Part shown: positions 142 through 35,189 of the stretch, in pieces
How the letters are laid out: every line of letters begins with the position of its first letter
Numbering within the stretch: the first letter of the stretch is position 1
Virus record (IMG/VR): IMGVR_UViG_3300046001_005644
Span: 1-35,189 of that record
DNA length: 35,189 bases
Source of the DNA: a virus
Direction: 5' to 3' (one strand)
Position numbers and translations under genes: made by a program
The notes under the pieces: generated by a model
Databases searched by the model: none
Told to the model about the DNA's origin: nothing
Seen by the model: only the letters and a program-made list of their open reading frames with translations

Positions 142-182
142 GTATAGTTTTTGTTGATTATTAAGTTTAGATGCACTATACT
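142..182 (+). promoter_or_regulatory. pL-like promoter 2 with two operator-like sites
   Basis: The -35 TTGATT (154-159), a 17-base spacer and the -10 TATACT (177-182) form a good sigma70 promoter. A 17-bp site, GTTTAG-N5-CTATAC (165-181), covers the -10. A second half-site, GTATAG (142-147), starts a 17-bp window whose centre is 23 bp upstream. The whole block is a near copy of the promoter at 30400-30440, with the same spacing. I infer that it is a repressor-controlled promoter inside the pL-type operon, driving the accessory genes from about 0.2 kb onward. Confidence 0.7.
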
Positions 183-3199: not shown

Positions 3200-4186
3200 G
3201 TGGCATCAATTACCAAGCAAAAAAAAGGATGGCGCGCACAAGTTGCAATCAAAGGCGTGCGCGAGTCTGGTACTTTTACAACAAAACTGGAAGCAACAAC
3301 CTGGGCAACTGAGCGAGAAGCAGCACTACGCAAGCAATCCAGCACCGGCATGACTGCAGGTAAAACGTGCCAAGATGCTTTTGATCGCTACTCTTTGGAA
3401 GTCAGCCCACACAAAAAAGGCGCGCGATGGGAAGATATACGCCTGCAGGCATTAGCCAAGCATAAGATTGATGGGGAAATGATTGGGGAAATGCTGCTAG
3501 CCGATTTAACTGCAGATGCTTTGGGGAAATGGCGAGACGCACGACTACTGCAGGTATCTGGATCCACGATCAATAGAGACATGAATCTACTTTCACACGT
3601 TTTCACGATCGCGCGCCGTGAGTGGAAATGGATTTCATCAAGCCCGACTGCAGATGTGCGCAGGCCGAAAGACCCGCCACACCGCGATCGCCTTATATCC
3701 GATGACGAAAGCGATCGCCTGCAGTTGGCGCTTGGCTATGATGGGGAAATTGTCGATAGCAAGTCTGCAGCCGTTGCAGTAGCGTTTCTGTTTGCGATCG
3801 AGACAGCTATGAGAGCAGGGGAAATATGCGGCTTGACTTGGGATAGAGTCGAAGGCACTGCAGCGCGATTGCTCAAAACAAAGAACGGCACAAAGCGAGA
3901 TGTACCACTGTCGGCGCGCGCGATCGAACTACTGCAGCAGTTACCGCGCGACAATCAGACATGCTTTGGAATAACCTCTGCTAGTCTTGATGCGCTTTTT
4001 AGGAAAGCCAAGACGCGCGCAGGAGTGGAGGATTTGAAATTCCACGACACAAGGCACGAAGCAATCACCAGACTTGCCAAAAAACTGAACGTCTTGGAGT
4101 TGGCGCGCATGGTCGGACATAAGGATTTGAACGAACTACAGACCTATTACAACGCTACCGCCGAAGAATTGGCGACCAAACTATGA
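3200..4186 (+). CDS. int: Tyrosine recombinase integrase, 328 aa
   Basis: The protein catalyses site-specific integration and excision. The N-terminal arm-binding domain is at residues 1-55, the SAM-like core-binding domain at about 56-150 and the catalytic domain at 165-325. The catalytic set is visible: R205 (in AMRAGEICGL), lysine K226/K228, H282 and R285 (HDTRHEA), H307 (VGHKD) and nucleophile Y316 (TYYNAT). The start is GTG 3200; no better ATG exists. Its stop abuts the stop of the lysozyme gene on the other strand. Word usage is unlike the rest of the genome: nine CTGCAG, five CGATCG, two GCGATCGC and five GGGGAAAT, suggesting recent acquisition. Confidence 0.95.
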   Translation: MASITKQKKGWRAQVAIKGVRESGTFTTKLEATTWATEREAALRKQSSTGMTAGKTCQDAFDRYSLEVSPHKKGARWEDIRLQALAKHKIDGEMIGEMLLADLTADALGKWRDARLLQVSGSTINRDMNLLSHVFTIARREWKWISSSPTADVRRPKDPPHRDRLISDDESDRLQLALGYDGEIVDSKSAAVAVAFLFAIETAMRAGEICGLTWDRVEGTAARLLKTKNGTKRDVPLSARAIELLQQLPRDNQTCFGITSASLDALFRKAKTRAGVEDLKFHDTRHEAITRLAKKLNVLELARMVGHKDLNELQTYYNATAEELATKL

Positions 4187-9748: not shown

Positions 9749-11010
9749 TTTTGCCCCGCTTTAAATTGCTGATAACGGCGCTCTTTTTCAGCGTCAGAAT
9801 ATGCGCCACCAATAGCCGCGCCCTGATTTTCATATCGAGACGTGTCAAGCTCTGGCTTGCCATAGTTTGCGCGGACATTTTCAACATTCAACTTATGCAA
9901 GCCAACTGCCCGAGCATTGATTTTCTTAATCTCACCAAGCCGCTGTTTAACTAGCTCTGTGTCGTTGATATTCTCGAATAGCTCATTCCAAGCCCTTTGT
10001 GCGTCACCGTCAGTCTGAACGCCTGAATTAAGACGAAGAGAATCATTGCGCATTTTCTCAATAGATGACTTAAACGATGATAGATTGCGACTCTCTTCGC
10101 TAGATCCGATGGTGTTATCTCTTGCCTTATTCAAAGCATTAGAAACAAGCCCAAATTTCAATTTCTTTCCGTCTATTTGCTTCAATACAGCATCAATATC
10201 TGATTGCGTATTACTTGCAACTCCGATTGCATCAAGTGCAGTCTGTTGCATTTTCAATGCTTGCGATGGCAGTGGCTTCGACTCGTCAGCAATCCTTTTT
10301 GCCTCAGCCCTAGATTCACCAACATCCTGGCCGCGAACCGTTATAGCCTGCCCATTTGCCGCAGTTTTCGCAGTACGTTTGCTGTTTTCTATTGACGCTC
10401 CAACAGTCGCCGCATTATTCAATCCTGATTGCGTATTATTTGCTACTGTATTGGCGTCAACCATTGTCTTATCTGCCAATTCTTTCGGCGTAAGCATAGA
10501 CCTAACCTGACGCATGCTCCAAGCAGGAACCTCTGCATCCGATTTTGGCATTGTTGACATTAAATGTTCGTAAGTTTGCTGATCTAGCCCGCCCGATCTA
10601 GCGTGTCTGTCCAGGCTGTTTTGAATATCGGCAACGGTAGAGAAGTTTGATAGCTCCGTTATTTTTGAGTGCAAATTTGCTTGCGATGTTTTAAAATCAG
10701 ATGAACTTGCATCACTGACGTTCTTTTGTGCCGATGCTTTATCCTGCTGAATCTTTGCCAGTTTTGCTGCCATTTCATTGGCTTGACCTGCAAAGCCGTT
10801 TGAATAAAGCATGTTCATGTTTCCGGTGTCATCACCAGGACGCATTTTGCCTATTACCTCGCGGAGCTTATTGCTTTCACCAAGCGCCCGCACTGCCTCA
10901 TCTTCGTTACGCTGCATCACATTACGGTCTAGTCTCTGCTTCATGTAGTCATTTTCAGACATAGCAGGAGGCAGCATATTTTGATAGAAAGATGTGTCAA
11001 CTTGCGCCAT
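9745..11010 (-). CDS. Probable ejection/internal virion protein, 421 aa
   Basis: Almost wholly helical and rich in Ala, Asn, Gln, Lys and Glu, with low-complexity coiled stretches and no cysteine. It lies between the gp7-like gene and the 812-aa gene, and all three together match the three-component ejection set of P22-like phages (gp7, gp20, gp16). The likely role is DNA delivery after adsorption. The assignment is mainly positional. The start at 11010 is just upstream-coupled to the previous gene (one base between stop and start). Confidence 0.65.
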   Translation of the reverse strand: MAQVDTSFYQNMLPPAMSENDYMKQRLDRNVMQRNEDEAVRALGESNKLREVIGKMRPGDDTGNMNMLYSNGFAGQANEMAAKLAKIQQDKASAQKNVSDASSSDFKTSQANLHSKITELSNFSTVADIQNSLDRHARSGGLDQQTYEHLMSTMPKSDAEVPAWSMRQVRSMLTPKELADKTMVDANTVANNTQSGLNNAATVGASIENSKRTAKTAANGQAITVRGQDVGESRAEAKRIADESKPLPSQALKMQQTALDAIGVASNTQSDIDAVLKQIDGKKLKFGLVSNALNKARDNTIGSSEESRNLSSFKSSIEKMRNDSLRLNSGVQTDGDAQRAWNELFENINDTELVKQRLGEIKKINARAVGLHKLNVENVRANYGKPELDTSRYENQGAAIGGAYSDAEKERRYQQFKAGQK

Positions 11011-11011
11011 A

Positions 11012-11725
11012 TTAAACCCCGAATTTCATTGGTGACTTCATATAATCGGTTGCTTGATTTGCCAAGTTTCCAGCAAATCTGCCCTGTGCCATATAGCCAG
11101 CCGCCCGCGCATTTGCTCCCTGTATTAAATTATTTCCAACATTTAACGCATTGCCAGATCTCAGATTTGCATTATTTGAGGATAAATTTGAGCCAAGATT
11201 GCCCGCATAATCTGCCGCATGTTGGCCTGTTCCAATAATCCCTGACAATCGGTTAAATTGGCTGTTCTGGTCTTGGTTGAATCGGTTGTATGCGTTGCCG
11301 TATTCCTGAGATGCCATGCCTTGATTGTAATCAGCCGAAGCCTTTACAGCCGCGCCAGAGAGCAAACCACCACGTGCCGCCATGCTTCTATCAATTCCCT
11401 TTTGCCCTTGAGCCAAGCGCCATTGATAGCCGGGGTCGGCATTAAAATCTCCCGCGCCAAATTGTTTAGAAAGTGCGCCATAGTTTTGCGAATTAGCATC
11501 ACCACCAAGCCCCATTAATTCCATCAGGCGATTCTGTCCTTTTAGCCCACCATCCAAATACGGCTGTTGCTGCGCCATGCCGATGCCATACATATTCTCA
11601 TTTTGGGCAATTGATTCTTTTGTCGCCGCCTCACTTCTCACAGAAGCCGCATGTGTTGCTGCCTCTTGCTTTTTTGCTGCCTTATTCGATGTGAATAGGC
11701 CGATTGCATCATTCCAAAAGCTCAT
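11012..11725 (-). CDS. DNA transfer protein, P22 gp7-like, 237 aa
   Basis: ATG 11725 is chosen because AAGGAG lies seven bases upstream; longer in-frame starts run into the previous gene. The product is Gly/Ala/Asn/Gln-rich (NAYNRFNQDQNSQFNRLSG) and contains the DPGYQWRLAQGQKGIDRSMAARGGLLSG stretch, split here as DPGYQWRLAQGQ and SMAARGGLLSG. This pattern is frequent in phage DNA-injection proteins. It is the first of three probable ejection proteins. Confidence 0.75.
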   Translation of the reverse strand: MSFWNDAIGLFTSNKAAKKQEAATHAASVRSEAATKESIAQNENMYGIGMAQQQPYLDGGLKGQNRLMELMGLGGDANSQNYGALSKQFGAGDFNADPGYQWRLAQGQKGIDRSMAARGGLLSGAAVKASADYNQGMASQEYGNAYNRFNQDQNSQFNRLSGIIGTGQHAADYAGNLGSNLSSNNANLRSGNALNVGNNLIQGANARAAGYMAQGRFAGNLANQATDYMKSPMKFGV

Positions 11726-26894: not shown

Positions 26895-28949
26895 TTATTC
26901 ACCTTCATTAATATTATGTTCTTGGCAAATTTTTACGCTGTTTTTATAAATCTCAACGTAGCCTTTTTCCTCAAGCGCATTTTTAAGGTCGTGAAATCTT
27001 TGGCGGTTAATCCCTTTTTCATCACAGGCAGCTTTCCATTGATCGGTATCAACCTTTGCAATATCATCATTTCCACGCTCAATTTCATTGTCGTAGTGCA
27101 ATTGAAGAGCCGCCAAAATGGTTAATCCTGATCTTTGATTGGCGCTTAATGGGTCGGCTTTTTTGCCAATCTTTGCCATCAGCCCCGAAATATCGACCGC
27201 TTGAAGGAATGCGCCTTGCACTGGATCGCCGTTTTTATCTAATAAAGGCAATGGCACTTGTGTGATGGCGAACGCTTTTGACGCTGGCATTTCAGCGTCT
27301 TTCATTTTCATTGACTCAAAAGTAATGGTCTTTGATCCACTATCAAGCTGGCATTTATACTCAGCATCGAGCGCACCACGCAGCGCAGTAGAACCCCTCG
27401 AACGTCCCTTATCTGCCGCACCTGAGTGATGCACTACCATCACGCAACACTTGTACGGCTGACGCAGATAAATATCCAAATGCTGAATAAATGAGTTCAT
27501 GTCCTCTGTGCTGTTTTCATCGCCGCCCATGTTCCGCGCCAAGGTATCGATGATGATCATGGAAGGAATGCAGCCATGCTGTTCTGATAGCTGCTTTATT
27601 GCTTCCGCAACGATTGCCGCCTCTGTTGCATCGTAAAGCTGTGCCGCCCTGTGGCTTTTATATAGTGGTGCGCCTTTGAGACTCACGCCTGTGCCTAATT
27701 CCCACGCCTTAAAGCGCCGCGCCAGTCCGTTATGGCCCTCGCCCGCAATGTAAAAAACCGCGCCTTGCTTAACGGCGTGACCATGCCAAGGCGTTCCAGT
27801 GGCGATACAACACGCCAAGTCGATTGACACAAATGATTTCCCCCCGCCTGGATCACCAAAGATTTGCGCCAAAGAATCGCCTTCGATATAGTCATCGACT
27901 AACCATTGAATCTCTGTCAGTTCAAGCGAATCAACCCGCGAGAATTCAAAAGCCATCTTGTCTTTAATTGGCGCAATGACTAATTCAATCTGATCACGCA
28001 CCGCATCAGGCCCACGCAAAGCATGAAGATCATTAAAATCTGTTGGCTTTCCTATGCTAATTTCTGAGGAATTGAATGTTGGGTGTACCACTTCGCCGTG
28101 TACCATCGCCGCGACTTTGTGCGCCTCAGTTAACCCAGGGTTACCATCGGTGAATTGGTCGTTATCTGCGCCGATAATGATTTTTGATGTGGGGAACATT
28201 TCCCGCACTGTTTTGGCGACCTTGCCCAAATTGCCGCAATTGAAAGCGACAAAAACGCAATAGCCTGTTGATTCGTAGATACTCGCACCAGTGGCGAAGC
28301 CTTCGCAAATAAAGATCACCTTTCGATTACCGGCGATCTCATAAAATCCACCGTCAATTTTGCCGCCCTTGAGAAACCGCTTATTTCCGTCAGAATCTAT
28401 CGTTTGATAGCTGATGTGCTTACCATCAGCATTTAGCACTGGAATGACCAACCGCCCCGCCCGATCTATCTTGATGCCGTGTGGCTGGATAAACTTGCGC
28501 AATAAGTAAGGATGATCAGCGCTGGCGTTAAAATAAGCTTCAATTTCATCTTCTGCCCGTTCTGCCGCTTGTTCTTGCCCCGCCTTGCGCTCTGCTTCTT
28601 TCTTGGCTTTTATCTCAGCAATCCACTTGGTATGCTCGACATTTTCCATAAAAGTAAATGCCCTGCCGATCTCAGCCTTCCAGTGGGCCTCAAATACCGG
28701 CTCTTTCCAGCAGCCGCAAATGCCAGCGGGTATTTTTCCATCGGTGTGCAAAATGTACCAACCATCAAGCGCCCCTTTTTTGCTTGAAGTGTGCGGTACT
28801 CGGTGGATTTCCCCATCGTCCTCAATGCTGTCAATAACAAGCCCATTGGCGAGGCAATGAGAGCGAAAAGAATCAATGGGATTAACTAGTGATGTTTCAT
28901 GCAGCGCAGGCACGAAGCCGCTAGGGAAAAATTTTGATATGTCTGCCAT
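26895..28949 (-). CDS. Toprim primase / RecA-fold helicase, 684 aa
   Basis: Two parts. The N-terminal half is a Toprim primase-like module with E216 (VIFICEG) and D262/D264 (IIIGADND), preceded by a helix-rich Lys/Glu linker at 100-140. The C-terminal half is a RepA/AAA_25-type NTPase with Walker A GDPGGGKS at 365-372 and Walker B at IIIDTLA (D468), followed by MVVHHSG and a C-terminal winged region. It would prime and unwind phage DNA, taking the O/P position of lambda. No CHC2 zinc finger is obvious. Confidence 0.9.
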   Translation of the reverse strand: MADISKFFPSGFVPALHETSLVNPIDSFRSHCLANGLVIDSIEDDGEIHRVPHTSSKKGALDGWYILHTDGKIPAGICGCWKEPVFEAHWKAEIGRAFTFMENVEHTKWIAEIKAKKEAERKAGQEQAAERAEDEIEAYFNASADHPYLLRKFIQPHGIKIDRAGRLVIPVLNADGKHISYQTIDSDGNKRFLKGGKIDGGFYEIAGNRKVIFICEGFATGASIYESTGYCVFVAFNCGNLGKVAKTVREMFPTSKIIIGADNDQFTDGNPGLTEAHKVAAMVHGEVVHPTFNSSEISIGKPTDFNDLHALRGPDAVRDQIELVIAPIKDKMAFEFSRVDSLELTEIQWLVDDYIEGDSLAQIFGDPGGGKSFVSIDLACCIATGTPWHGHAVKQGAVFYIAGEGHNGLARRFKAWELGTGVSLKGAPLYKSHRAAQLYDATEAAIVAEAIKQLSEQHGCIPSMIIIDTLARNMGGDENSTEDMNSFIQHLDIYLRQPYKCCVMVVHHSGAADKGRSRGSTALRGALDAEYKCQLDSGSKTITFESMKMKDAEMPASKAFAITQVPLPLLDKNGDPVQGAFLQAVDISGLMAKIGKKADPLSANQRSGLTILAALQLHYDNEIERGNDDIAKVDTDQWKAACDEKGINRQRFHDLKNALEEKGYVEIYKNSVKICQEHNINEGE

Positions 28950-29042: not shown

Positions 29043-29252
29043 TTACTTCCCGTGTGACTCCACCAGCAAAGGATTGTCGCTACACATGCGATGAACTAAT
29101 CTAAGCTCATCGAAATAGGAGGCAACATGGGAAGCAAGAACTTTATTCACGTAGGCATTGCGATCCAAGCCCTTGGCGAGTGCAATAGCATCAAGCGCCC
29201 GCACCAGATCAGCGTCAGCAAGGCCGCGCAGTTCTTTTTGATCTGCGCTCAT
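29043..29252 (-). CDS. Ribbon-helix-helix-like protein in the cII position, 69 aa
   Basis: Residues 9-50 (LRGLADADLVRALDAIALAK, then GLDRNAYVNKVLASHVASYF) fit a beta-helix-helix DNA-binding fold of the Arc/MetJ class. It overlaps the cro-like gene by ATGA (29249-29252). The place, between cro and the replication gene, is where lambda keeps cII. It might tune lysogeny, but it is not a CII homologue by sequence. Confidence in the fold is moderate. Confidence 0.65.
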   Translation of the reverse strand: MSADQKELRGLADADLVRALDAIALAKGLDRNAYVNKVLASHVASYFDELRLVHRMCSDNPLLVESHGK

Positions 29253-29482
29253 GCTGTTTTACCAGTGCGCAGGTATGCCCAATCAACGTCTGGCCTGAGC
29301 TGCTCGCAGATAACCTGGCGAGCTGTTGCTCGCTCAATTACTGGGCAGTGTTCAGCAGGAATTTTCCTATCTGTTTTTTTCCATTGGCTAACCGCGCCTT
29401 TTGTTATTCCAAGCAAGTCAGCCAAAAGCCTTGCCGACCCAATGATAGAAATAGCCTTATTTAATGGCTCTTGTGATTGCAT
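29249..29482 (-). CDS. Cro-like / YdaS-type HTH regulator, 77 aa
   Basis: A small helix-turn-helix protein with LADLLGITKGAVSQWKK as the recognition unit, then IPAEHCPVIERATARQV and LRPDVDWAYLR, a pattern of YdaS/Cro-family regulators. ATG 29482 is chosen over GTG 29488 because GGGGG lies five to six bases upstream. It is divergent from cI, across an operator region, so it should act as Cro: repress cI and early promoters and favour lytic growth. Confidence 0.85.
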   Translation of the reverse strand: MQSQEPLNKAISIIGSARLLADLLGITKGAVSQWKKTDRKIPAEHCPVIERATARQVICEQLRPDVDWAYLRTGKTA

Positions 29483-29509: not shown

Positions 29510-29538
29510 AGTCTAGTCCTTCTATACTTTTATGTCAA
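29510..29538 (-). promoter_or_regulatory. pR-like promoter for cro operon
   Basis: On the minus strand -35 TTGACA (29538-29533, consensus), a 17-base spacer and -10 TAGACT (29515-29510). It drives cro, the RHH gene and the replication operon. Two operator-like sites overlap its -35 and its spacer/-10. Confidence 0.8.
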
Positions 29539-29574
29539 GAATATGTGTACCGATTGCAATTAGATTTTCTATAC
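29511..29574. promoter_or_regulatory. Tripartite operator OR, three 17-bp sites
   Basis: Site 1 GTCTAG-N5-CTATAC (29511-29527), site 2 GTCAAG-N5-GTGTAC (29534-29550, weak) and site 3 AATTAG-N5-CTATAC (29558-29574). Gaps are 6 and 7 bp, so centres are 23 and 24 bp apart, as in lambda OR. Site 1 covers the pR spacer, site 2 the pR -35, and site 3 the -10 of the likely cI promoter (TATACA, 29570-29575). Confidence 0.72.
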
Positions 29575-29583
29575 AATTTACAA

Positions 29584-30093
29584 ATGAATATTAAAAATAA
29601 AATTTCTTTATGGATTCGCAGCTCAAGAAAAGAAGCTGGATTTTCTGGCGACGAGCTTGGCGCGAAATTGGCAATGGAACTTGGCGACGAGAAAGGCCAT
29701 ACGAAGGCCAATATATCCCACTGGGAACTTGGAAGGCATGACCCAAGCTTCCGTCAAATATTGGCTATAAGTAAGGTAACAAAATCCCCGCTGCCACAAG
29801 ATATTTTATTTATTGCAAATAAAATAAATACAGATAAGCAGCCGCAAGTAAAAATTCATGCAGATACACAAGCATTAATTGATCTAATGAATAGCACGGA
29901 TGACCGTGGAAAAAAGAAAATACTTAGTGCCGCGCAGGACACCTGGGAAATCCACGAAGCGCATTTAAGAAAAATCGGCCAATCTAGTGCTGGTGTGAGT
30001 GATCAAATTGGCCGCATTGGTAATATAAGCAGAAAGCACAATAAAACAGAGCCTAATGATGATCTGAACGCATCATCTGATGACGCGACATAA
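29584..30093 (+). CDS. CI-like repressor without peptidase domain, 169 aa
   Basis: Residues 1-75 form a helix-turn-helix of the XRE type (KISLWIRSSRKEAGFSGDEL, KANISHWELGRHDPSFRQIL). The C-terminal half is short, charged and lacks the S24 Ser-Lys self-cleavage domain, so RecA-driven self-cleavage is not expected. Start ATG 29584 lies eight bases after a -10 (TATACA), implying an almost leaderless mRNA, as with lambda cI. The GTG at 29545 would be inside the operator. It should bind GTNTAG-N5-CTATAC sites. Confidence 0.85.
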   Translation: MNIKNKISLWIRSSRKEAGFSGDELGAKLAMELGDEKGHTKANISHWELGRHDPSFRQILAISKVTKSPLPQDILFIANKINTDKQPQVKIHADTQALIDLMNSTDDRGKKKILSAAQDTWEIHEAHLRKIGQSSAGVSDQIGRIGNISRKHNKTEPNDDLNASSDDAT

Positions 30094-30226
30094 TAGCCTC
30101 TCTTAATTCCGCTGTCGGGAACTCTTCCGACAGCTCTACAGCTTTTGCCATAAACCAGATTTTTGCATCCTCATTCATCGTATTATAAAAAATTAGAAGT
30201 TTGCGCTCCATATGCGTGATGCTCAT
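30053..30226 (-). CDS. Small protein convergent with cI, 57 aa
   Basis: The frame (MSITHMERKLLIFYNTMNED, then KIWFMAKAVELSEEFPTAEL) looks protein-like: helical, with a C-terminal His/Met/Arg-rich end. It overlaps the last 41 bases of cI on the opposite strand. It contains an 8-bp stem (GCTGTCGG at 30111-30118 with CCGACAGC at 30127-30134). The ribosome binding site is weak. It may be a small regulator transcribed against cI, or a chance frame. Confidence 0.45.
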   Translation of the reverse strand: MSITHMERKLLIFYNTMNEDAKIWFMAKAVELSEEFPTAELREAIMSRHQMMRSDHH

Positions 30227-30340: not shown

Positions 30341-30399
30341 TAAAAAATCCTGTATCCATAGAACAACAAAGAGAAATATAAAAAATATTTATTTATTTT

Positions 30400-30440
30400 G
30401 TATAGTTTATGTTGATTTATTTGTTTAGCCGCTCTATACT
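30400..30440 (+). promoter_or_regulatory. pL-like promoter 1 with two operator-like sites
   Basis: -35 TTGATT (30412-30417), 17-base spacer, -10 TATACT (30435-30440). The 17-bp site GTTTAG-N5-CTATAC (30423-30439) covers the -10, and GTATAG (30400-30405) starts a second 17-bp window whose centre is 23 bp upstream. It drives the recombination cassette beginning at 30529. Confidence 0.8.
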
Positions 30441-30528
30441 TCTTTCGTACCAAACAACCCACCCAATAAAAATCTGTTGAGGCAGATAAAACAGGTGGCC
30501 TCATAAGTAACGAAAAGGAGTTTTACAA

Positions 30529-30906
30529 ATGAACGACATAAACCGACTGCCAGTATTACTGGCCGCACTGAAAGCCGCGAAAGCGACCGAGAACGAAGCA
30601 AAAGAAATCCGCACAGGATTAGAAACGGCAATTTTGGATTTGTGCCCAACGGTTGAGGCCGAAGGAATAATGAAGCTTGAGGGCTTCACGATCACAACCA
30701 AGATGACCCGCGCAGTAGATACAGAAGCATTACAAGCCGCTTGGGGATCGCTACCCGCAAACGCACAAAAAGCCTTCAAATGGAAGGCCGAAATCGACCT
30801 GAAAAACTACCGCTCTATTCAAGAAATGGACACGGCAAGCTTCACGACCCTGGCGCAATTTGTTACATCGAAGCCAGCGAAACCAACGATCACAATTAAG
30901 GACTAA
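30529..30906 (+). CDS. First gene of the pL operon, hypothetical, 125 aa
   Basis: AAGGAG nine bases before ATG 30529 fits a strong start. The product is helical at the N-terminus (PVLLAALKAAKATENEAKEI), with a mixed C-terminal part (FKWKAEIDLKNYRSIQEMD) ending in a basic tail. It precedes the Sak4-like gene by two bases and is likely part of the recombination module. No domain is recognised. Sequences like this are often found next to phage single-strand-annealing ATPases. Confidence 0.7.
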   Translation: MNDINRLPVLLAALKAAKATENEAKEIRTGLETAILDLCPTVEAEGIMKLEGFTITTKMTRAVDTEALQAAWGSLPANAQKAFKWKAEIDLKNYRSIQEMDTASFTTLAQFVTSKPAKPTITIKD

Positions 30907-30908
30907 TC

Positions 30909-31655
30909 ATGGCCTTCGACCTATCAAGCGTGAGCAAAACACGCCGTATTCGCGCCCCTAAAATTGTATTAGCCGGGCAAAACAAAATTGGTAAAACTAC
31001 CTTCGCCGCCATGTCGCCAAACGCCATTGGCATATTAACCGAAGATGGAGCTGATGCCGTGGACGCACAGGCATTCCCGCTCGCAACAACATTAAATGAA
31101 GTGTACGAAGCAATAAGTACACTTATTAGTGAGCCGCACGACTTTAAAACAGTCTTTATTGATTCGATTGATTGGCTTGAGCCATTAGTACAAACGCATG
31201 TTTGCCAAGCCAACGGCTGGAAAAATATCGAAGCACCCGGCTTTGGCAAGGGTTACATCGCAGCAGCCGAAGAATGGCGCAATCTGTTATCTGGCTTGGA
31301 AGCACTCCGCGCACAAAGAAACATGGGTGTGATTCTCATTGCCCACGACAAAATCAAACGTGTTGATGATCCGCTTACAGAGGGATATGACAGCCACGTA
31401 TTGAAGCTAAACGACCGCGCCAGCGCCCTTGTTGCTGAATGGGCCGATGTGATTGGTTATGCAGGTTATCGCATTTTCACAAGCCAAAAGGATGCAGGTT
31501 TTGGCAACAAAGAAACCAAGGCCACAAGCACCGGAGAGCGCATTTTGCACGTAGAGCCGCACCCCGGTCACTGTGGTGGCAACCGCTTTGGTTTAACGAA
31601 TATGCCGCTTGACTGGACGGTATTTTCAGCAGCACTTGAAGCAGCACAGTCTTAA
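30909..31655 (+). CDS. Sak4-like RecA-fold ATPase (recombinase), 248 aa
   Basis: Walker A GQNKIGKTT at residues 23-31 and Walker B TVFIDS at 81-86 with a following WLEPLVQ. MGVILIAHDKIKR and WADVIGYAGYR complete the AAA_24/Sak4 pattern of phage single-strand-annealing-type recombinases, which work with an SSB-like partner. The gene order (ATPase, DUF669, nuclease, helicase) is the usual cassette. It begins two bases after the previous gene. Confidence 0.85.
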   Translation: MAFDLSSVSKTRRIRAPKIVLAGQNKIGKTTFAAMSPNAIGILTEDGADAVDAQAFPLATTLNEVYEAISTLISEPHDFKTVFIDSIDWLEPLVQTHVCQANGWKNIEAPGFGKGYIAAAEEWRNLLSGLEALRAQRNMGVILIAHDKIKRVDDPLTEGYDSHVLKLNDRASALVAEWADVIGYAGYRIFTSQKDAGFGNKETKATSTGERILHVEPHPGHCGGNRFGLTNMPLDWTVFSAALEAAQS

Positions 31656-31697
31656 TCAGTCCGACACGAAACCACTTAATTTTTGGAGATTTAAATC

Positions 31698-32183
31698 ATG
31701 GCTACATTTTCATTTGACGCATCAAACATCGCCCCAGCAGCTAACTTTTCACCAGTGCCAGCAGGTCAATACATTTCACAAATCATCGACTCGTCAATCG
31801 GTGCGACTAAGGACATGACCGGGCAAATTCTTAAACTCACGTTTGAGATTCTGGACGGTGAATTTAAAGGCCGCAAGATCTGGAACAATCTGAACATTCA
31901 GAATAAAAACCCTGATACAGAACGCTATGCACAAGCCGACCTTTCGGCAATCTGCCGCGCAACAAATCAGATTAAATTGACTGATACCGCATCACTTCAC
32001 AATATACCTTTGAAAATCAAGGTAACAATTCGTGAAGCTTCCGGTGGATATGAAGCACAAAACCAGATCAAAGGTTTTGATGCTGCAAGTAGTGGTTTTA
32101 CTAGCCAGCCAGCGCCAAGCCAACCAGTACCAGGCATGACACAAGCCGCGGCAAATCCATCAAAACCAGCTTGGGCTAAGTAA
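31698..32183 (+). CDS. DUF669-family protein (SSB-like), 161 aa
   Basis: Matches the DUF669 pattern: FSFDASNIAPAANFSPVPAG, then QILKLTFEILDGEFKGRKIW and CRATNQIKLTDTASLHNIP-like segments, followed by a Pro/Gln-rich linker. DUF669 proteins are predicted to be OB-fold single-strand DNA-binding partners of Sak4 recombinases. GGAG nine bases before ATG 31698 supports the start. The C-terminus is PAWAK, without the acidic tip of host SSB. Confidence 0.8.
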   Translation: MATFSFDASNIAPAANFSPVPAGQYISQIIDSSIGATKDMTGQILKLTFEILDGEFKGRKIWNNLNIQNKNPDTERYAQADLSAICRATNQIKLTDTASLHNIPLKIKVTIREASGGYEAQNQIKGFDAASSGFTSQPAPSQPVPGMTQAAANPSKPAWAK

Positions 32184-32184
32184 T

Positions 32185-33213
32185 ATGGCACTGTTACCCT
32201 TGGCGGTAACAGACCCCGTTGCAGATGCTATATTTGCCAGCTACAAGGCACAATATAGCATCGAGCCGCAACGCGGTTATGTTGGCGCGTCCTCCATTGG
32301 CAAATCATGCACTCGCGCCCTCTGGTATCAATTCCGGTGGGCGAAAGCACCTGAGTTTTCAGGCCGACTTTACAGGCTATTTCAATCTGGTCACTTGCAA
32401 GAGCCGCGCATTAATGCCGACCTTCGCGCCATTGGCATGACTGTTTATGAAGTCAATCCAGCGACAGGCAAGCAATGGTCATTTGTTGAAAAGTCTAGCG
32501 GCGGTCATTTCCGTGGCAACTGTGACGGTATCGTCACTGGCGTACCACAAGCGCCATTGTCGCCGCACATTCTTGAAGTGAAAACGTCCAGTGCAAAACT
32601 CTTTGCAGTGATGCAAAAAGACGGTGTTAAGAAGGCCAAGCCAGAACACTACGCGCAAATGCAAATTTACATGAAATGGTCGATTGATCTTTTCGGTAAC
32701 GAAGGATGCAAACGTGCGCTATATGTCACGGTGAATAAAGACACGGACAATATTTATTCTGAGCGCATCGAGTATGTGGAGGAAGAAGCGCAAGCCCTGA
32801 TTGACAAGGCAAATCACATTATCGAATCGCCAGAGCCGCCAATCGGCATTAGCACCGACCCAACGTATTACGAGTGCAAGTTTTGCGACTATTCAGACAT
32901 TTGCCATGGCAAAGAGATACCAGCGCCAACGTGCCGCACTTGCGCCCATGTAACGCCAGTAATGAATGGCGATGGAACTTGGACTTGTGGCTTTGATGAA
33001 GTGGGCCAGCTTGACGACATGCAGCAAAGAACAGGATGCACAAAACACCGCTACATTCCAATTTTACTTAAAGCACATGGCGAACCTGTCGATTTTACAG
33101 ACGGCAATGTCACGTATAAAACAATGGACGGTAGAACATTTATCAATGGTGAAGGTGGCTTTGGCGATAGTTTCAGCAGCGTTGAAATTTATGTGAGTGA
33201 GCCAGCCAAATGA
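32185..33213 (+). CDS. Cas4/RecB-like PD-(D/E)XK nuclease with Fe-S cysteines, 342 aa
   Basis: The catalytic core is D114 (GNCDGIV), E131 and K133 (LEVKTS) and a Q-x-Q motif (HYAQMQIYM). Four cysteines at 42 (GKSCTRALW) and at 231, 234 and 240 (ECKFCDYSDIC) form the C-n-C-2-C-5-C pattern of Cas4/AddB iron-sulphur nucleases. A further zinc-ribbon-like C-x2-C (CRTCAH) and C/H set follows. It probably resects DNA ends for Sak4. It is not part of a CRISPR locus. Confidence 0.88.
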   Translation: MALLPLAVTDPVADAIFASYKAQYSIEPQRGYVGASSIGKSCTRALWYQFRWAKAPEFSGRLYRLFQSGHLQEPRINADLRAIGMTVYEVNPATGKQWSFVEKSSGGHFRGNCDGIVTGVPQAPLSPHILEVKTSSAKLFAVMQKDGVKKAKPEHYAQMQIYMKWSIDLFGNEGCKRALYVTVNKDTDNIYSERIEYVEEEAQALIDKANHIIESPEPPIGISTDPTYYECKFCDYSDICHGKEIPAPTCRTCAHVTPVMNGDGTWTCGFDEVGQLDDMQQRTGCTKHRYIPILLKAHGEPVDFTDGNVTYKTMDGRTFINGEGGFGDSFSSVEIYVSEPAK

Positions 33214-33389
33214 TACAAGCGCCACACGTGACCGATCAGAAACATATAGACAACCAGACACCAGGAATATTAGACAGCCCAAGGCGCTTTTGCACTATCT
33301 GCAAACACGCCCGATCTGTCGCCCAATTCTGGAATAAAAAACAGATTCCTGTCTATAAATATTGTGGAAAATGTGGAGGCAAAAAATGA
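33210..33389 (+). CDS. Zinc-ribbon micro-protein, 59 aa
   Basis: Linked by ATGA overlaps at both ends (33210-33213, 33386-33389). Two cysteine pairs, CTIC (residues 28-31) and CGKC (52-55), about 20 residues apart form a treble-clef-like zinc ribbon. The N-terminus is polar. It may be an accessory of the nuclease or helicase on either side. The function is unknown. Confidence 0.65.
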   Translation: MIQAPHVTDQKHIDNQTPGILDSPRRFCTICKHARSVAQFWNKKQIPVYKYCGKCGGKK

Positions 33390-35008
33390 AACTCCGTGAT
33401 TATCAATCTAAAACTGTTGCCGACTTATTCGCCTGGTGGACAGATCACCAAGAAAATAATGATGTGCCGCTTTTGGTATTGCCGACAGCCGCAGGTAAAA
33501 GCGTTATTTGCGCCGACATTGTGCGCCGCATGTTTGACGATTACCCCGACTTTCACCCGCGAACGGTGGTACTTGTGCCTAGCAAAGAACTTGCAGAACA
33601 AAACGCCGCCAAATTAGTTGCGCTACTACCAAGCCATGTTAGTGTTGGTTTTGTCTCTGCCAGTTTAGGCAAGAAGCAATTTACTTCTGATGTGATCGTT
33701 GCCACCATCGGCAGCATTGCAAAATCAGCGCACTTGCTTGGCAATATCAAAGTGGTGATTATTGACGAGGCGCACCTAGTATCAACAAAAGGCGCTGATG
33801 CAGGTATGTACCGCCAATTTTTGGCAAGCTTGGCAAAGTTTTGTAATTTCCGAGTATGCGGCATGACCGCCACGCCGTTTAGGGGAAATGGTGTCTGGTT
33901 GACTGATGGAGACAGCCCGCTATTTACTGGAATTGCGCATAACGTGACCATGCGAGAGCTGTTAGACGATGGCTACATCGCGCCATTAGTGCCGCCGCCA
34001 GGCGCTTTAACTGTTCGCATTGATTCGTCAAATGTTGGTATCAGCAATGGCGATTACAAAATCAACGAGCTTTCAGAAGTCGTTGAAAAGTATCTGCAAA
34101 ACGTTGCAGAGGAAGCCGCGAAACTAGCAGCCGACCGTAAAAAATGGATTGCCTTTACTCCCTCGGTAGCCAATGCCGAAAGCCTATGTGAGAAATTCAA
34201 TGACCTTTGTATTAGCTCTGCTGTTGTCTGTGGCGATACTCCAAAAGACGAACGAGAACGATTAATTAGACATTTTAGGCAAGGCAAAATAGATTGCTTA
34301 GTCACCGTCTTGGCGCTCTCTGTTGGCTTTGATGTGCCTGATGTTGATTGTATTGTATGGTGTCGCCCGACTAAATCGCCAGTGTTGTACGTGCAAGGCA
34401 TGGGCCGAGGTGTACGAATCTACGAAGGCAAAGCCGATTGTCTGGTTTTAGACTTCACCGACACAGTGGAAAGACTCGGCCCCGTTGATACTATCCGTGG
34501 ACGATCAGCCAAAGGCGGTGGCGGTGACGCGCCTTATTGCCTATGCCCCGAGTGCGGCGATAGAAACCACGCCACGGCGATGATATGCGCAGCTTGTGGC
34601 GCAATCATACGCGAAGAAATAGTAAAGCCAATGAATGCCATAGCCAGCCGCGCCGCTTTGTTATCACACCAGGTAAAAGCAGCGGAGCCAGTATGGATTG
34701 ATGTGACAAAGGCCACCTATTCGCGCCATCAAAAAGAAGGCAAGCCCGACACTTTGAGAGTGGATTATTACGGAGGCATTTTGCGCGTGGCGAGTGAGTG
34801 GGTATGTTTTGACCATTCAGGCTATGCCAGAAACAAGGCTGATGATTGGTTTAGAACTAGAAAGCCAGAAACATTCACCGCATCGCCTGGATGCGTAGAT
34901 CAGTTGCTAGACTGGATTGATTCAGGCTTTACGCTTCGCCAGCCAAACAAGATTTTAACCCGCCAGAACGGTAAATTTACGGAGATAGTAAGTCATGACT
35001 TTAATTGA
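33386..35008 (+). CDS. SF2 DEAH helicase with zinc finger, 540 aa
   Basis: The helicase core has Walker A PTAAGKS (33-39), DEAH in VVIIDEAHLV, motif III MTATPF and motif VI GMGRGVR. Residues about 390-420 hold a zinc ribbon (CLCPECGD and ICAACG). The C-terminal about 90 residues (GKPDTLRVDYYGGILRVASE) form a domain common in phage RadD-like helicases. GGAGG seven bases before ATG 33386 fixes the start. It probably remodels forks or recombination intermediates. Confidence 0.9.
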   Translation: MKLRDYQSKTVADLFAWWTDHQENNDVPLLVLPTAAGKSVICADIVRRMFDDYPDFHPRTVVLVPSKELAEQNAAKLVALLPSHVSVGFVSASLGKKQFTSDVIVATIGSIAKSAHLLGNIKVVIIDEAHLVSTKGADAGMYRQFLASLAKFCNFRVCGMTATPFRGNGVWLTDGDSPLFTGIAHNVTMRELLDDGYIAPLVPPPGALTVRIDSSNVGISNGDYKINELSEVVEKYLQNVAEEAAKLAADRKKWIAFTPSVANAESLCEKFNDLCISSAVVCGDTPKDERERLIRHFRQGKIDCLVTVLALSVGFDVPDVDCIVWCRPTKSPVLYVQGMGRGVRIYEGKADCLVLDFTDTVERLGPVDTIRGRSAKGGGGDAPYCLCPECGDRNHATAMICAACGAIIREEIVKPMNAIASRAALLSHQVKAAEPVWIDVTKATYSRHQKEGKPDTLRVDYYGGILRVASEWVCFDHSGYARNKADDWFRTRKPETFTASPGCVDQLLDWIDSGFTLRQPNKILTRQNGKFTEIVSHDFN

Positions 35009-35189
35009 AATCCGCGCAATGAAAGACCTTTTTAAGCGTGAACTGAACAGGCTGGAAAGCATCGACATTAAATGCCAATCATGCGAAAACTATACGGACA
35101 GAACATGCCAAAAGTGGGGGATGATCCCGCCCGATGAAGTGCTGAAATCTGGCTGCGATTCATGGCAATACGATTGGATACCGTTTTAA
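34995..35189 (+). CDS. Small cysteine-containing protein, 64 aa
   Basis: Starts inside the helicase 3' end with GGAG ahead of ATG 34995 and ends with the final base of the contig. Residues 27-53 carry CQSCENY, RTCQKW and SGCDSW, a four-cysteine zinc-knuckle pattern also seen in many small phage proteins, followed by WQYDWIPF. In the circle, the next element is the promoter at 154-182. The function is unknown. Confidence 0.75.
   Translation: MTLIEIRAMKDLFKRELNRLESIDIKCQSCENYTDRTCQKWGMIPPDEVLKSGCDSWQYDWIPF
35064..35189. repeat. Right copy of 126-bp terminal overlap
   Basis: Identical to bases 4-129. It holds the 3' part of the small cysteine-containing gene 34995-35189. Because the two copies lie at the extreme ends, they represent one locus seen twice, not a biological duplication. 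Confidence 0.95.

Follow-up and report, generated by a model that had tools for sequence, protein, structure and literature searches.

The window analysed here is a viral DNA record of 35,189 nucleotides (IMGVR_UViG_3300046001_005644), the ends of which carry an exact direct terminal repeat of 126 bp (positions 4–129 and 35064–35189), and the record is therefore probably a single complete genome, circular or terminally redundant. Its virion genes are P22-like (phrog_156 portal, 3.8e-131; phrog_578, 1.4e-127; P22-like portal matches). A cI-like gene on the plus strand (29584–30093) encodes a repressor of 169 aa with a helix-turn-helix (HTH) domain and without an S24 domain. It diverges from a cro-like gene on the minus strand (29249–29482), the 77-aa product of which falls in the YdaS/P22-Cro family (PF15943, 9.8e-26; PF14549, 1e-08; both above the Pfam cut-off) and matches the Cro structure 3bd1 in the PDB (4.4e-11). 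Between the two genes lie three similar sites of 17 bp each, termed S1 (GTCTAGTCCTTCTATAC, 29511–29527), S2 (GTCAAGAATATGTGTAC, 29534–29550) and S3 (AATTAGATTTTCTATAC, 29558–29574). They are separated by a 6-bp gap on the cro side and a 7-bp gap on the cI side, giving centre spacings of 23 and 24 bp, as a preliminary description of this DNA had proposed.

That description also placed S1 and S2 on the elements of pR and S3 over the -10 of cI, and both placements hold. A consensus scan finds pR as TTGACA-17-TAGACT (29510–29538, minus strand), with its -35 inside the left half of S2 and its -10 inside S1, and equivalent hexamers lie within the half-sites of nearly every relative. The predicted pRM -10, TATACA (29570–29575, plus strand), starts within S3, in its right half, lacks a good -35 and stands 8 nt before the cI ATG. 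The same distance recurs in most relatives, and hence cI is probably transcribed with little or no leader, to judge from the position of this predicted hexamer.

With matrices built from relatives only, S1 and S2 are each the top match of their own class over the whole window on both strands, while S3 ranks second in its class, behind positions 165–181, likewise an operator site. Scored together with a relatives-only matrix, the S1-S2-S3 composite reaches 45.5 bits, against maxima of -0.4 in random 35-kb sequences (n = 40), 9.3 in AT-rich random sequences (n = 40) and -5.0 after dinucleotide shuffling of the 102-bp cI-cro intergenic region (n = 3000). The 35-kb window contains three matches to GTNTAGN5CTATAC, each within an intergenic operator, and none to its reversed control pattern; the genome-wide search suggested earlier thus returns no multitude of equal matches in coding DNA. 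The window sites are weaker than those of the relatives, matching the family consensus at 31 of 36 half-site bases. S2 and S3 do look weak if scored singly with a simple consensus, as they might if the sites were a chance resemblance within AT-rich promoter DNA. This reading is contradicted by the gulf between the composite score and the shuffles, by conservation and by regulon specificity, the motif being confined to operators in the relatives, and we reject it as having practically no chance of being right. The middle site had been singled out as weak, and its apparent weakness arises because its left half doubles as the pR -35: in the relatives this half reads GTCAAG, the reverse complement of CTTGAC.

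Relatives were collected by a protein search with the CI N-domain that ignored the operator. The hosts of the closest 19 genome matches (E <= 6e-29) are all Oxalobacteraceae (Massilia, Janthinobacterium, Duganella, Herminiimonas and Undibacterium), with one more close match in a Xanthobacteraceae MAG, and the phage family to which this right operator (OR) belongs has its relatives mostly in Oxalobacteraceae from soil and water. Three sites stand directly upstream of cI in 45 of 49 CI-family loci (at most 12 mismatches in 36, with gaps of 3 to 12 bp searched), and most of the 45 have 0 to 3 mismatches. The gaps of 33 distinct triplets are 6/7 (n = 18), 7/6 (n = 8, an order found in several Massilia relatives), 6/6 (n = 4), 6/5 (n = 2) and 7/7 (n = 1). 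Mean information is about 1.5–1.7 bits per site column, compared with 0.4–0.8 bits per gap column. In one lineage (L056 and L074) a CI-family N-domain is present, but no three-site operator can be recognised in the DNA preceding the matched start. In the reverse direction, 2.9 million viral contigs were searched with the operator alone, both gaps being left free from 0 to 25 bp; this gave 17 matches, every one beside a window-type cI or a fragment of it, with gaps of 6/7 (n = 15), 6/6 (n = 1) and 7/7 (n = 1).

Further from the window, a Paraburkholderia locus (L058; 36% identity) has drifted half-sites with gaps of 6/7 and its ATG 9 nt past site 3. In Aggregatibacter phage S1249, to which the window CI has a weak match (2e-4), a distant cI is preceded by three AT-rich dyads at 1091, 1114 and 1138 (L080, 1091–1154), spaced 23 and 24 bp apart. 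The dyads were picked out by eye in AT-rich sequence and suggest that the operator geometry extends to Pasteurellaceae phages. A similarity search of phage records with the immunity-region DNA gave no match, nor did a protein search of phages and plasmids with the CI-family N-domain at 1e-5; at this sensitivity, the family was not detected among 50,697 phage records. A literature search on the operator and on repressors of Oxalobacteraceae phages found nothing relevant.

In a set of chromosomal loci, mostly from Massilia (L038–L042 and L044–L050), cI and a three-site operator are divergent from a small gene, and no window-like cro was detected. The small gene of L040 is holin-like (phrog_20, 1.8e-10; PF16082, 4.2e-05, below cut-off), and the other ORFs searched near it fall in no clear phage family. 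The Massilia cI and small gene are possibly a domesticated, SOS-controlled lysis pair.

A second, OL-like operator of the window phage lies 889 bp from OR, ahead of the recombination operon. It consists of two sites 23 bp apart, A (GTATAGTTTATGTTGAT, 30400–30416; rank 11 with a symmetrised matrix, rank 4 with the S2 matrix) and B (GTTTAGCCGCTCTATAC, 30423–30439; rank 3 with the symmetrised matrix), and a consensus scan finds a pL-like promoter across them (TTGATT-17-TATACT, 30412–30440, plus strand). The pL-type early operon (30529–35008, plus strand) encodes a DUF7173 protein, a Sak4-like ATPase, an SSB-like protein, a Cas4-type exonuclease and a helicase, and the pR-type operon has a primase-helicase gene downstream of cro (26895–28949, minus strand). 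With OL before the recombination operon and a replication gene on the cro side, the overall layout is lambda-like. The pL promoter-operator stretch is also duplicated, positions 129–200 being 82% identical to 30387–30456. The copy has its own sites A (GTATAGTTTTTGTTGAT, 142–158) and B (GTTTAGATGCACTATAC, 165–181; rank 1 with the symmetrised matrix) and its own promoter (TTGATT-17-TATACT, 154–182, plus strand), and lies upstream of a region leading to the integrase (3200–4186). This third CI-type operator is absent from all whole relatives searched.

In the relatives, a matrix scan finds the second operator downstream of cI, at a distance of 0.9 to 4 kb and in the same orientation, typically as GTATAGTTTTTCTTTAC - 7 bp - GTATAGN5CTATAC. 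A pair of sites at 23/24 spacing together with -35 and -10 hexamers is present in 18 of the 18 relatives tabulated, and in one lineage (L067, L068 and L078) a third OL site lies 23 bp upstream of the pair. Across 18 whole relative records (768 kb), GTNTAGN5CTNTAC is confined to OR and OL, and its reversed control pattern occurs once.

We consider it very likely (probability about 0.9) that positions 29511–29574 are the OR of a lambda/P22-type lysis-lysogeny switch, on which CI is predicted to act as it would on the OL-like promoters. The analysis establishes the sites, their spacing, their placement on promoters, their conservation and their specificity to the CI regulon; we infer that CI binds them, the order in which they fill, that cI represses itself and that pRM may be activated from S2. 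CI dimers would recognise GTATAG-N5-CTATAC; on S1 and S2 they would cover the -10 and -35 of pR, turning off cro and the replication operon, and at higher concentration CI would occupy S3, over the pRM -10, and repress its own gene. The arrangement of S1 and S2 on pR and of S3 on the cI -10 argues for both pR repression and cI autorepression, and the latter, which the preliminary description had predicted, is well supported by this anatomy. CI at S2 might also activate pRM, a possibility raised by the poor pRM -35. The OL-like promoter at 30400/30423, downstream of cI, and its duplicate at 142/165 would be silenced by CI as well, and Cro would probably compete for the same sites.

The sites might instead belong to Cro only, and a YdaS/P22-Cro-like gene is indeed found beside 26 of 45 operators. 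However, the chromosomal Massilia loci retain the sites beside cI without a detected window-like cro, so that the sites follow cI, and the nearest gene on the S1 side, in those loci with a visible ORF, encodes a small protein that is holin-like in L040; binding by Cro alone is accordingly very improbable.

The closest known kind of system to this switch is the lambda/P22 immunity switch, here in a P22-like podovirus, and the window operator is real and well conserved, a further switch of a known type and ordinary in principle. As in lambda (J02459), divergent cI and cro flank three sites of 17 bp separated by 6 and 7 bp, of which the first two lie on pR and the third on the cI promoter; another operator, downstream of cI and oriented like it, drives recombination genes, and the replication genes are on the pR side. 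The preliminary description called the geometry exactly that of lambda OR. The two gaps and spacings are the same, but their order is mirrored, since the annotated lambda OR (OR3-6-OR2-7-OR1) has its 7-bp gap next to cro, whereas the window has its 6-bp gap there. The site sequences also differ, the window CI lacks S24, and the window OL has two sites plus a second copy. BLASTP of the window CI and Cro against those of lambda gives E values of 0.10 and 0.056 over 18–21 residues, bearing out the earlier view that these proteins are not lambda-like, and by sequence they fall outside the families of lambda CI and lambda Cro. To call the immunity region unrelated was nevertheless too strong: there is no useful alignment to lambda, but the virion is P22-like, Cro is of the P22-Cro/YdaS family, and the N-domain of P22 c2 is among the nearest solved folds to that of the window CI. 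The window differs from P22 immC in having a CI that resembles c2 weakly (profile E 0.0019) and carries no C-terminal S24.

Gifsy phages have short, non-cleavable repressors that are inactivated by an antirepressor (PMC3121763). The window CI is likewise short and lacks an autocleavage motif, within a lambdoid layout; in contrast to Gifsy, no antirepressor gene was found in the window, where E. coli-type LexA boxes are not above chance. The restriction-modification controller C.Csp231I is an HTH dimer that binds the palindrome CTAAG-N5-CTTAG at two 15-bp operators 18 bp apart (PMC4321490). It shares the HTH dimer, the 5-bp spacer of the palindrome and a weak sequence and fold similarity with the CI N-domain, but differs in its role, in the lack of a cro and in its two 15-bp operators separated by 18 bp.

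What fixes the 23/24-bp spacing is a separate matter, in which the C-terminal part of CI is central. The S24 domain of lambda CI provides both the pairing of dimers (cooperativity) and RecA-stimulated self-cleavage. A domain scan did not find S24 (PF00717) in the window CI; the domain is present in 31 of 41 CI-family members and absent from the window CI and 9 of the 40 relatives scanned, and the operator code and spacing are identical in the two groups. In an N-domain tree built on 73 columns, the well-supported branches require at least two changes of C-terminal type (four most parsimoniously), and the window CI is divergent, on a long branch. Its structure model is confident for the N-domain and low for the C-terminal part (pLDDT <50 from residue 114), and no match reached E 0.001 in a fold search with the model, which ranked HTH proteins such as HipB, P22 c2 and C proteins highest.

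The preliminary description predicted cooperative repressor pairs. Pairwise cooperativity of the lambda kind between CI dimers, provided in the S24-less window CI by a C-terminal helical module, could set the spacing. Such contacts are consistent with the retention of 23/24 bp at nearly all OR and OL pairs and at the third OL site of the L067/L068/L078 group, and several short CIs have in common a C-terminal segment of helical character. On the other hand, the C-terminal part is poorly conserved across the short CIs and modelled with low confidence, and promoter hexamers account for most of the spacing, so that we place this explanation just short of even odds.

The spacing may also be a by-product of promoter architecture, whether or not the dimers touch. 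The hexamers sit at half-sites throughout, with the pR -10 in S1, the pR -35 and the pRM -35 position in S2, and the pRM -10 in S3, and sigma-70 spacing alone could therefore impose 23/24 bp. Gap + 11 equals the promoter spacer in the relatives and at OL, a 6-bp gap going with 17 bp and a 7-bp gap with 18 bp, and the spacing by itself is thus no proof of dimer-dimer contact. That it is unchanged in CIs with (31/41) and without (10/41) S24, across the changes of C-terminal type forced by the tree, points the same way, as does lambda, in which the pR hexamers also begin in OR2 and OR1, 23 bp apart. The repressor of the lambdoid phage 933W is reported not to bind adjacent sites cooperatively (PMC3317979), and cooperativity is therefore not readable from geometry. 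Two features do not fit: the third OL site of the L067/L068/L078 lineage is not positioned by the pL hexamers, and the poor pRM -35 leaves no obvious promoter reason for a strict 17/18 there. We regard promoter architecture as a serious candidate, though one that we would not back at even odds. A bolder form of it, offered tentatively and with the expectation that it may well fail, is that the spacing common to lambda and the CI family is imposed by sigma-70 geometry, as the coincidence of half-sites with hexamers would imply, and not by lambda-type contacts between dimers; CIs could then exchange S24 for short unrelated tails while the operator code and spacing stay fixed.

In this respect the CI family offers a natural experiment on the determinants of operator spacing in phage switches, as one DNA code and geometry serves repressors both with and without the cooperativity and cleavage domain, and it makes this more interesting question testable. 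The operator and cI signature should also allow immunity groups to be read from sequence alone in Oxalobacteraceae environmental phages and prophages, and it predicts the existence of Oxalobacteraceae prophages for which CI self-cleavage would not be the means of induction.

Two minor observations concern the DNA around the end of cI. In the window, a 57-aa ORF (MSITHMERKLLIFYNTMNEDAKIW..., 30053–30226, minus strand) is convergent with cI and overlaps its end. In one relative (L003), a second ORF, judged S24-like by eye (LRVRDQGMEPMLFEDDWIVIDTSDTARRDREIYAVNWNGEACVQQL..., 10780–11181), follows directly after cI.
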